From: an uncultured Lachnospiraceae bacterium
GTDB lineage: Bacteria; Bacillota; Clostridia; Lachnospirales; Lachnospiraceae
DNA: 64,000 bases
NCBI GenBank assembly: GCA_947631625.1
Contig: CANRMA010000001.1
Coordinates: 175,942 to 239,941, forward strand
Direction: 5' to 3'
Shown: in pieces, positions 12,699-16,537 of the stretch
Layout: the number at the start of each line of letters is the position of its first letter
How positions within the stretch are numbered: the first letter of the stretch is position 1
Program-made: the position numbers and the translations under genes
Notes under the pieces: model-generated
Told to the model about the DNA's origin: nothing
Databases searched by the model: none
The model's input: only the letters and a program-made list of their open reading frames with translations

Positions 12699-15600
12699 TT
12701 ACTTAACTTTAAGCCTTTTGGTAATTGTATTCTTTGCAGGTTTTGTGGAGGGATCTATATTCTTACCGTTTTCAACATAGGTAAAGGTTAATGTATAAGT
12801 ATCTTTCTTAACTATTTCATCAACATCTTCCCCATTGCTGTTCTTTACACTTAATGTGTAATCTGCATATTCATTATTATCTTGTTCTTTATATTCCTTT
12901 AATATGTTCTTTCCGATCTTTGCTGCAATCTTATTACTTGCTTTTAACTCTGCAAGCAAATCCGAACCGGTAGCTTTCACGGAAGACGGGCAGACGATTT
13001 TTACTTTATCAAAAGTTGTCTTAGTAATTTCAAATGTCTTTGGATCTTTGTTTACGTTAGCTGTATCAAGATTATAATTATTTCCTTTAATAGTAACTAA
13101 ATATGTTCCTGCTTCTTTAGGAAGGTCTTCTTTATAGTCTGATTCGGTTACTTCCTGACCATCTGCTGTTTTAACCTTCTTATACAACAAAACATAGTCG
13201 CTGCCTGCTTTTAATGTTTTCTTTCCTACTTTGACTTTAGTCTTAGGCTGCTGACCTGCGCCGTTATATTTAGCTGACGGCGTACAAGAAATGAACTGAA
13301 GCTCACCCTCCGGAGCAGCGATTTTGTTAATATTAAAAGTCTTTTCAACGGTTCCTGCAAAATTACCGGTACCGGTAATCTTGACCGTGGCAGTTCCTGC
13401 ATTCTTATTATTCACATAAGTAACTTTATATTTTACTTTTACGGCATTACCGGCGCTGGTTTTAGATACTTTAGGTTTGATCGCCTTTCCTGTATAAGAA
13501 TAACCGCCATCTTGTATATCACATGAGAACCAGTCTTCTTGTAAAGAATACTTTACATTTATCGTATAAGACGCGCTCTTTCCTCCGAACTTAACGGTAA
13601 TTTTACTCTTACCAATACTATACGGTAGTAATGAAAATTTAATAGTATTACCTTCCACTATGGGATCAGAGACAGCTACCACCGATGTTTTAGGCAATGT
13701 AATGGTAGGACTGACACCCGCATACTTCTGAAGCTCTTCCGCATTGATATCCGGATCACCTTGATTTACAGAGATCGTAATATCAAAGGAATTATAATTA
13801 ATTTTTTCGTCTTCCGTCAAATATTTATAATTATTATCAAGTTCTGCTTTCGTGTAATCTTTTGTCTCTGTATAAGATGTCTTCCCGTTTGAGAATACAA
13901 GTTTGCTGACCTTATAGTTACTTACGCGAACACTGATATTACAGGAAGAACCATTCCTTAACTTTGCCTTAATTGTGACATTTCCGGGATTCTTGCCTGC
14001 TGTCAACTGACCGTCTTTATCTACCGCAACTATGTTAGAATCGCTGCTACTCCATTCTGTTACCATCTTACTATAATAAGAATCTTTAACTGACATACTA
14101 TACTTCTGCTTAGGTTTTAAGATAATAGCCGAACCTTCCGGAATTGGATAATCGGTTGTGGAAAGTTTTTCGAACTTAAATTTCTTTCCCTCATTAAAAC
14201 GCTTCCCTGTAGCCATATGCATACCGTCATCACTTTTTAGCAGCCACATCTTATTTGATTTGTTTTCGGAATCGTTCCATGTAGAATCCAATAAATACCA
14301 CTTATTATCCGGCATCTGTACATAATTCCATGCATGACCACCAACTCCATCGCCTGTATCGGCATCTCCGACAACATACAGATTTTTTATACCAGCCCTA
14401 TCCAACAAACGCGTCATTGCCAGTGCATAACTTTCGCATACACCGTATCCTTTTAATAAAATACCATATGCGCTATGACAATAAAAGTACGTATCAGTGT
14501 CCATTTTGTTTGAGTCAGTTCCATCCCAGTTATATTCATTGTTTTCACATATCCAGTTATCGAAATATTCAATTATGCCATAAGTAGGATTAGCAGGATA
14601 ATTAGCTACTGCATAAGATACTGCCGCATCTACAAGTGATTGTACCTTCTGGTCTGCCTGTGTTTCCAAACCGGATTGATAATATGGAGATTTTGCCAAA
14701 TATGTTTCATATGTTCCATTACCGTTTTTATATTCCATATGTGCTTGAAGCGGTTGAGGATAACATCCTAAATCCATCCAGTTAAAACTGTTAGGATATG
14801 AATCTACCAATGCCGATATTGAATTGACCAACGCATTCTCCCACGCTGTTCCATAGATAAGCATCTTCGATGGAAATATATAACCCACATATTCATCTGT
14901 AGATGTATCTGCTGCCTTCTCGTCAACCCATATTTTTTCCCCGGCTTCATAAAATACTTGTTCTTTACTGCTTAACTGTTTCTTAAAATAATTTTGATTT
15001 GAGTGAAGAGTATCCAGTTCATTTAATGAAATTTCCCTTGCATCTGCCGCTGCAGTATATGACTCAGCCAACTCAACATTTTCCGAAACAAAACCATTCT
15101 CTTCAACTACTTCTTCAAATTTATCGGATACTTCCGTTTCTCCGAATCCCTCTGTATCTGAAACATCATCGGACTCTGCGCCCTTATCATCTGAATCAGC
15201 ATTATTGCCAGAAGCCGAAATAGCCCCCCCCTCTGTTTCTGAATCACTGTCTGCATCGTTCTTATTTCCCACTTCGACATCAGTATCGTTACTTTGTTTA
15301 TCTTCTTCATCGGAATCTGTTACAGTGCCCTCTTTGTCTCCTGTGTTGGCATCAGAATCAGTACCTTCTTTGTCCTCTGCATCAGCATCTGTTCCAATAC
15401 TTTCTTTATCCTCTGCATTAGTATCTGTTCCGATACTTTCTTTATTCCCGGTATTGGCATCATTTTCGATACCAACCTTGTTTTCTGTATCTGTTTCGTT
15501 CACATCTGAACCGTCTTTGATCTCAGAATCTTTTTCTGTCTCAGAAGTGTCTTCCTGTTCATCTGCTTCAACGGTTTCCTCTTTATCAATGCTTACTTCT

Positions 15601-16283
15601 GACTGTGTATCAGCTGTAAAAAGATTTTTAACAGGTATTGATATATCCATTCCCAACGCGCCGTTTTCATCAAGTGAAATGACTATATTGTGAACATCGT
15701 CACCATTTTCCTTCCACTCAATAACTGACTCACACATATCTTTGTATACATCTTTAGCATCATCCGGCAGGCTGTTATATGCCCTCATAGACAGATATGC
15801 TACATCATCATATTGAACTCCGTTTGAACCTACTACTTTAACGTCTGCGCTAAATGTGTCCGATAATTCCTGAGATTCTTCAACTGCTACAGCCGTTGTT
15901 TCTTCTTCCGTAATGGCTTCAACAGTAGTTTCTTCTGCTTCGGACTTTTCGGCTGCAGGCTCTTTAACTGCATTTTCTTCAAGATCGGTCTCTTCTGATT
16001 CGGATTTTTCAGCTGTATCCTCTTCCGAACCGACCTCTTCCGGCTCAGCCCCTTCATTTACATTACCATTTTCGGAGACAGCTTCATCAACATCTTTCCC
16101 CTCCGCTTCCGGTTCCAGAACTGACTGCTCCGAATCATTAAAATCAACTGGCGAAAATTCGTTTTCAACTGTCACTTCTTCATTTTCTGCCGCCGTAACC
16201 GGCACTGCCGGAAACGAAGTGACCGTCATAGCTGCAGCCAATAGTATCGGAAATACCCTTCTCTTCATTTTTTTAAACTTCAT
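12699..16283 (-). CDS. secreted surface protein with transglutaminase-like domain, BIG2/Ig-like repeats and acidic N-terminal repeats
   Basis: Signal peptide MKFKKMKRRVFPILLAAAMTVTSFPAVPVTAAE; transglutaminase core GVCESYALAMTRLLDRAGIKNLYVVGDAD...GGHAWNYVQMPDNKWYLLDSTWND; YTGKAIKPKVSKTSAGNAVKVKYKVTYVNNKNAGTATVKITGTGNFAG repeat. Confidence 0.88.
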   Translation of the reverse strand: MKFKKMKRRVFPILLAAAMTVTSFPAVPVTAAENEEVTVENEFSPVDFNDSEQSVLEPEAEGKDVDEAVSENGNVNEGAEPEEVGSEEDTAEKSESEETDLEENAVKEPAAEKSEAEETTVEAITEEETTAVAVEESQELSDTFSADVKVVGSNGVQYDDVAYLSMRAYNSLPDDAKDVYKDMCESVIEWKENGDDVHNIVISLDENGALGMDISIPVKNLFTADTQSEVSIDKEETVEADEQEDTSETEKDSEIKDGSDVNETDTENKVGIENDANTGNKESIGTDTNAEDKESIGTDADAEDKEGTDSDANTGDKEGTVTDSDEEDKQSNDTDVEVGNKNDADSDSETEGGAISASGNNADSDDKGAESDDVSDTEGFGETEVSDKFEEVVEENGFVSENVELAESYTAAADAREISLNELDTLHSNQNYFKKQLSSKEQVFYEAGEKIWVDEKAADTSTDEYVGYIFPSKMLIYGTAWENALVNSISALVDSYPNSFNWMDLGCYPQPLQAHMEYKNGNGTYETYLAKSPYYQSGLETQADQKVQSLVDAAVSYAVANYPANPTYGIIEYFDNWICENNEYNWDGTDSNKMDTDTYFYCHSAYGILLKGYGVCESYALAMTRLLDRAGIKNLYVVGDADTGDGVGGHAWNYVQMPDNKWYLLDSTWNDSENKSNKMWLLKSDDGMHMATGKRFNEGKKFKFEKLSTTDYPIPEGSAIILKPKQKYSMSVKDSYYSKMVTEWSSSDSNIVAVDKDGQLTAGKNPGNVTIKAKLRNGSSCNISVRVSNYKVSKLVFSNGKTSYTETKDYTKAELDNNYKYLTEDEKINYNSFDITISVNQGDPDINAEELQKYAGVSPTITLPKTSVVAVSDPIVEGNTIKFSLLPYSIGKSKITVKFGGKSASYTINVKYSLQEDWFSCDIQDGGYSYTGKAIKPKVSKTSAGNAVKVKYKVTYVNNKNAGTATVKITGTGNFAGTVEKTFNINKIAAPEGELQFISCTPSAKYNGAGQQPKTKVKVGKKTLKAGSDYVLLYKKVKTADGQEVTESDYKEDLPKEAGTYLVTIKGNNYNLDTANVNKDPKTFEITKTTFDKVKIVCPSSVKATGSDLLAELKASNKIAAKIGKNILKEYKEQDNNEYADYTLSVKNSNGEDVDEIVKKDTYTLTFTYVENGKNIDPSTKPAKNTITKRLKVK

Positions 16284-16302
16284 TTTTATCTCTCCTTTTC
16301 TA

Positions 16303-16311
16303 CCCCCCCCC
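16303..16311 (-). repeat. homopolymer G9 (C9 on + strand) directly upstream of RBS of the surface protein
   Basis: tctaCCCCCCCCCggtaat; SD aggag at about 16293-16297, ATG at 16283. Confidence 0.95.
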
Positions 16312-16537
16312 GGTAATATTCGCGATACATCGCTTTAGGGAAGCTAATTTTAATTCTATCAAAAATAATGGGATTGTAAATAGAATATTAAGAAAATAAA
16401 TAGATAAAAATTTAAAACTATTACGATATAACAGATATTGAATGGTCTTTTATAATATAGTATATTTAGTATATCATATATAATAAAGGTTTTACAAAAT
16501 AAAATATGGTCTAACAGACAAGGAGACGCATCAAAAT

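Follow-up and report, generated by a model that had tools for sequence, protein, structure and literature searches.

A Poly-G Tract in a Secreted Transglutaminase-Like Gene as a Candidate Phase-Variable Site in a Lachnospiraceae Genus Rich in Such Tracts

The transglutaminase-like gene and its two tracts

The window, by which we mean the whole 64,000-nucleotide stretch of DNA that was analyzed, belongs to a Lachnospiraceae MAG of 2.67 Mb (G000; 30 contigs, 81% complete). On the minus strand, positions 12699..16283 encode a secreted protein of 1194 amino acids, identified from its open reading frame and Pfam. An N-terminal signal peptide, recognized by inspection, is followed by a long acidic low-complexity region, a transglutaminase-like domain (Transglut_core, PF01841, E 6.9e-9; residues 566-666, 14286..14588 on the minus strand) and a Big_2-like domain that scores below the Pfam cutoff. 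We identified no anchor motif in this protein, and its surface location is a prediction.

An earlier note on this DNA reported two poly-G tracts at the gene, and both exist as described. One is a G8 (C8 on the plus strand) at 15224..15231, inside the coding sequence at codons 351-353 (TEGGA), and the other is a G9 (C9 on the plus strand) at 16303..16311, upstream of the gene. The further observation that no other C/G run in the window is equally long also holds, as these are the only two runs above 6 and the next longest is one C6. The G9 does end 19 nt before the ATG at 16283, although calling it directly adjacent to the Shine-Dalgarno sequence was slightly loose: AAGGAG (16292..16297, minus strand) lies between tract and start codon as a separate element, 5 nt from the G9.

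Translation of the sequence indicates what a change in the coding tract would do. With eight Gs, the frame runs through all 1194 amino acids (ON). With one G lost, it passes into ...EGGLFRLLAIMLIQMIRAQSPMMFQIQRDSEKRKYPINLKK-stop at 15109-15107 after 391 amino acids, precisely the off-frame that had been proposed, and with one G gained, it stops at 360 amino acids. Both stops precede the transglutaminase domain, which is lost in either off-frame. A change of one unit in either direction would thus alter expression, and the homopolymer is longer than its own genome would be expected to produce by chance.

Further upstream lies a likely promoter, TTTACA-16-TAGAAT (16353..16380, minus strand; 70-97 nt before the ATG), which matches 10 of 12 consensus positions. 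It has a counterpart in HAN047, a related MAG, in which a paralogue (L116) carries TTTACA-17-TAGTAT at the same place and no G tract between promoter and Shine-Dalgarno sequence. The G9 therefore appears to sit in the 5' untranslated region, downstream of this conserved promoter and ahead of the Shine-Dalgarno sequence, and not in a promoter, because no -35 fits the -10 that would follow it and a transcript starting there would lack the Shine-Dalgarno sequence. The tract is also spanned by a 14-codon upstream open reading frame (MYREYYRGGVEKER; 16286..16330, minus strand) that ends 2 nt before the ATG and has no clear Shine-Dalgarno sequence of its own. At G10 or G7, this frame would run in register into the main one, and at G8, it would be stopped early.

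Poly-G excess and broken frames in the host genome

We compared the number of long G/C runs in the host genome with an expectation based on 464 kb of it, with 20 stretches (400 kb) taken as background. Run counts there drop by a factor of ~0.17 per added base, and geometric extrapolation to 2.67 Mb predicts 24 G7, 4.1 G8, 0.7 G9, and 0.1 G10 runs, or ~5 runs of G8 to G10 together. The whole genome holds 28 distinct tracts of at least eight Gs (18 G8, 8 G9, and 2 G10; Poisson P about 7e-13), of which about five would be chance products, and only 6 G7 runs (P about 4e-11 for the contrast between G7 and G8). Since the distribution dips at seven and then peaks at eight to nine, base composition cannot be the source of the excess. 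The longest A/T runs in the 464 kb are of 8 bases. Although 27 of the 28 tracts are in the sense orientation, this strand bias is weak evidence, because 79% of baseline G4-G5 runs are sense as well.

Several of these tracts stand in genes that are out of frame. Of 22 in-gene tracts on the coding strand, six mark the exact point at which the frame breaks: those of an epimerase (L037, G9), a methyltransferase (L040, G9), a radical-SAM-like protein (L042, G10), a sulfatase-like protein (L052, G8), and two paralogous acidic secreted repeat proteins (L062 at C13:46552 and L066 at C19:48925, both G9). These calls come from reading the frames, and for the sulfatase-like gene, an intact paralogue (L051) gives the expected reading across the site. 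The two acidic proteins are built like the window protein; in both, the G9 comes just after the signal peptide. Their signal-peptide frame, MKQMK(R/K)WTALMLA...AAENSAGYVQEAD..., meets a stop right after the tract, and the acidic downstream frame, open for at least 499 codons, is out of register with it. Each of the six broken genes would be in frame with one G removed (or two added). By the same frame reading, all five G9/G10 coding tracts are OFF and 16 of 17 coding-strand G8 tracts, that of the window included, are ON, as expected if G8 were the ON allele and additions of one or two Gs the OFF alleles. Three of the OFF assignments (L052, L062, and L066) replace those of an automatic classifier that had scored them ON through spurious frames; the classifier also scored 6 of 150 G5-G6 runs as OFF, so it carries some noise for G/C runs.

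Errors in the consensus or the assembly could account for some of the OFF calls. As a control, we examined A/T runs of at least 7, and none of the 196 tested, 129 of them inside open reading frames, broke a frame, which argues against a general indel error. Loss of mismatch repair was rejected as a cause, as MutL was matched in 40 of 41 genomes and repair is therefore not obviously missing.

Two other places in this genome carry tracts of their own. A surface-sugar cluster (C2:15995-34236) with a NeuC-like epimerase, an NAD-dependent epimerase, an AMP-binding enzyme, and a methyltransferase holds four poly-G tracts within ~18 kb, two of them OFF. A large secreted protein gene (L057/L109, C11:46609-46639) has a G9 inside a TTGACA-19-TATAAT spacer and, judged by its sequence, is a cleaner candidate for a transcriptional switch than the window gene.

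Tracts across the genus and family

Runs of G9 or longer are present in 57 of 61 congeners, and many occupy promoters. In 78 genomes, we counted 17 occurrences of the arrangement TTGACA-N-G7+-N-TATAAT and 0 of the reversed pattern, and G9-TANAAT occurs ~120 times in 52 of the 78, compared with 0 for its control, a few of these matches being start-codon contexts instead. TTGAC stands at a spacing of 16-20 from the -10 in 24 of 67 distinct loci, compared with about one per ten positions elsewhere. Among the other genera of the family, each sampled by one genome, G9-TANAAT was found in 32 of 298 genomes, with 1 control hit. The genes downstream of spacer tracts often encode large secreted proteins of the same type as the window's.

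A small lipoprotein gene indicates how one such tract arose. Species without the tract have TTGACA-17-TAGAAT, and in seven species the spacer is TTGACA-N1-3-G9-N6-TATATAAT-like; the plain 17-nt spacer implies that a promoter was already present when the tract evolved within it. The spacer tract is exactly G9 in all seven species (family loci L103-L107, L110, L111, and L217-L246), and in five of the seven another G9 directly follows the lipobox cysteine. Tracts are also found at start codons: flagellin genes of three species (L046, at G000:C3:62843-62852, L167, and L172) read G10-TAAA-ATG, with the tract where the Shine-Dalgarno sequence should be. Of the coding tracts of G10 or longer in eight congeners, some divide acyltransferase-3 and YfhO genes between two frames, with halves that match contiguous Pfam coordinates (Acyl_transf_3 2-171 + 175-325 and 3-171 + 176-320; YfhO 4-114 + 124-356).

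We also compared tract lengths between species, each represented by one genome, at tracts analogous to those of the window. Orthologous tracts with flanks 91-95% identical differ by one G, as G9/G10 (L287, L310, and L323; L280, L294, and L177). In a surface protein, the tract that directly follows the signal peptide (AAENEVGGGKT) has nine Gs and an open frame in two species; in a third it is G8 and the frame is stopped. Many other orthologous tracts, the lipoprotein promoter tracts among them, are equal in length, so selection also maintains tract lengths.

The window's own tract site is not conserved, as neither tract is present in the closest orthologue (HAN047, 51% identical). In the stretches compared, the orthologues in HAN047, G009, G003, and G017 contain no G run of at least 6 (L004 begins inside the gene). 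The orthologue in G015 has, instead of tracts of the window's type, an upstream G11 in a possible TTGACT-18-TAAGAT spacer. In the same assembly, N runs at two loci (L149 on C54 and L132 on C24) are bordered by G13-G20, and the one at L149 falls within a TTGACA...TAGAAT promoter. Since assemblers stall at poly-G tracts, the number of tracts may be underestimated.

Taken over the genus, several tracts per genome, their enrichment at positions where a change in length would switch expression, and the presence of OFF alleles give us good confidence that these MutL-positive Gram-positive gut anaerobes run a Campylobacter-like poly-G phasome. It would comprise coding, promoter-spacer, and start-codon tracts and affect surface proteins, flagellins, and surface-glycan genes, and promoter tracts suggest that it extends to ~10% of the other genera sampled in the family.

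Interpretation of the window's tracts

We consider it probable that the coding G8 is a slipped-strand contingency site and one member of this phasome. Replication slippage would add or remove one G at the tract. At G8, the full secreted transglutaminase-like protein would be made, and at G9 or G7, translation would end ahead of the catalytic domain. The phasome would also include further acidic surface proteins, enzymes for cell-surface glycans and sugar modification, and promoters that carry a tract in the -35/-10 spacer. ON/OFF switching through the G8 is likely because of the set of tracts in the genome and genus, the frame-broken paralogues, and the ON/OFF orthologues within the genus, and we infer that the tract at 15224-15231 itself switches in living populations. 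The earlier proposal of a candidate phase-variable gene is thus borne out, for a stronger reason than the two tracts on which it had been based.

Could the G8 instead be nothing more than ordinary Gly-Gly codons (GGG GGG with flanking G) within acidic sequence of low complexity, slipping rarely and not maintained as a switch? Eight Gs are at the short end of switching tract lengths, which counts against a switch, as does the presence of MutL; about four G8 runs are expected in the genome by chance, and the site is missing from the closest orthologue. In addition, nearly all G8 coding tracts of this genome are in frame, which low mutability would fit as well. Against these points, G8 runs are 4.4 times more frequent than expected and three times commoner than G7, and several other secreted proteins carry tracts in a similar acidic region after the signal peptide, two of them OFF. 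On balance, we regard the Gly-Gly explanation as unlikely, although it deserves to be kept in mind. Much less credible is the idea that tract lengths and broken frames are artefacts of MAG assembly or sequencing. Poly-G runs do border the N gaps of a congener assembly (L132 and L149), but the intact A/T runs speak against such artefacts, and read errors cannot explain 67 distinct tracts beside -10-like hexamers, many with an in-register -35, that come from many separate assemblies.

For the upstream G9, dual transcriptional and translational switching had been suggested, and this part of the earlier note is not supported: the tract lies downstream of the TTTACA-16-TAGAAT promoter, and the predicted folding of the 5' untranslated region does not depend on its length. 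A promoter-spacer switch, as in congeners, in L057, and possibly in L032 of the same genome, would be in keeping with the frequency of spacer tracts and of TTGAC at 16-20 in the genus and with the TAGAAA that follows the G9. However, a porA-type spacer, with -35 and -10 around the tract at a spacing of 16-20, is absent at 16303-16311, where no -35 is in register; a start after the tract would cost the gene its Shine-Dalgarno sequence; and the promoter 42 nt further upstream has its counterpart ahead of the tract-free HAN047 paralogue. We rejected this reading for the window's G9 and consider it improbable. It is somewhat easier to imagine, though still doubtful, that the G9 tunes translation, either through the upstream frame that crosses it (fused at G10 and G7, stopped early at G8) or by way of a UUCCC that pairs with the G run beside the Shine-Dalgarno sequence. 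The dependence of that frame on tract length and the genus tracts right at start codons, flagellin genes included, are consistent with such tuning, whereas the upstream frame's want of a Shine-Dalgarno sequence and a folding energy that is equal from G8 to G10 and no better than that of shuffles (z -0.68) are not. The same folding result lends no support to an RNA-structure switch at the G9. As an element of the 5' untranslated region, the G9 is probably slippery too, the second such tract of the gene, with modest or no effect on translation.

The mechanism and targets proposed here match those of simple sequence repeat (SSR) contingency loci, and the closest match is the Campylobacter poly-G phasome. 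In that system, as analyzed with PhasomeIt, tract lengths peak at 9-10 and are mostly G8-G11, 5% of tracts in open reading frames have C on the coding strand, and tracts of at least 8 have been shown to switch (PMC6321876). The resemblance extends to a high number of poly-G tracts in each genome, their orientation with G on the coding strand, their location mostly in surface and glycan genes, and frameshifts of one unit; the differences are that our organisms are Gram-positive Lachnospiraceae, have many tracts in promoter spacers, and possess MutL. To our knowledge, Campylobacter lacks MutSL. In Neisseria porA and opc, a poly-G/C homopolymer between -35 and -10 alters their spacing and switches the promoter, as the spacer tracts of congeners and of L057 may do, unlike the window gene with its upstream tract in the 5' untranslated region. 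Among Firmicutes, C8/C7 slippage in mga of Streptococcus pyogenes reversibly controls a surface protein (PMC10330708); this too is a frameshift switch in an 8-base tract, although it acts through a regulator and at a single locus. SSR phase variation is likewise known from Gardnerella (PMC11287997), with a sialidase as an example cited in a review (PMC11868660), in a Gram-positive of another phylum and in other genes. Our open-access search found no report of poly-G phase variation in Lachnospiraceae, which leaves novelty unproven; the kind of switch is known, and its lineage and scale are apparently new.

Discussions of phase variation in gut Firmicutes mostly concern DNA inversion. If our reading is correct, slippage by one base would let single cells of common gut anaerobes switch their surface proteins, flagellin, and glycans, and this would bear on phage sensitivity and immune recognition. 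It would also bear on strain-level annotation, where genes with such tracts are likely to be called pseudogenes.
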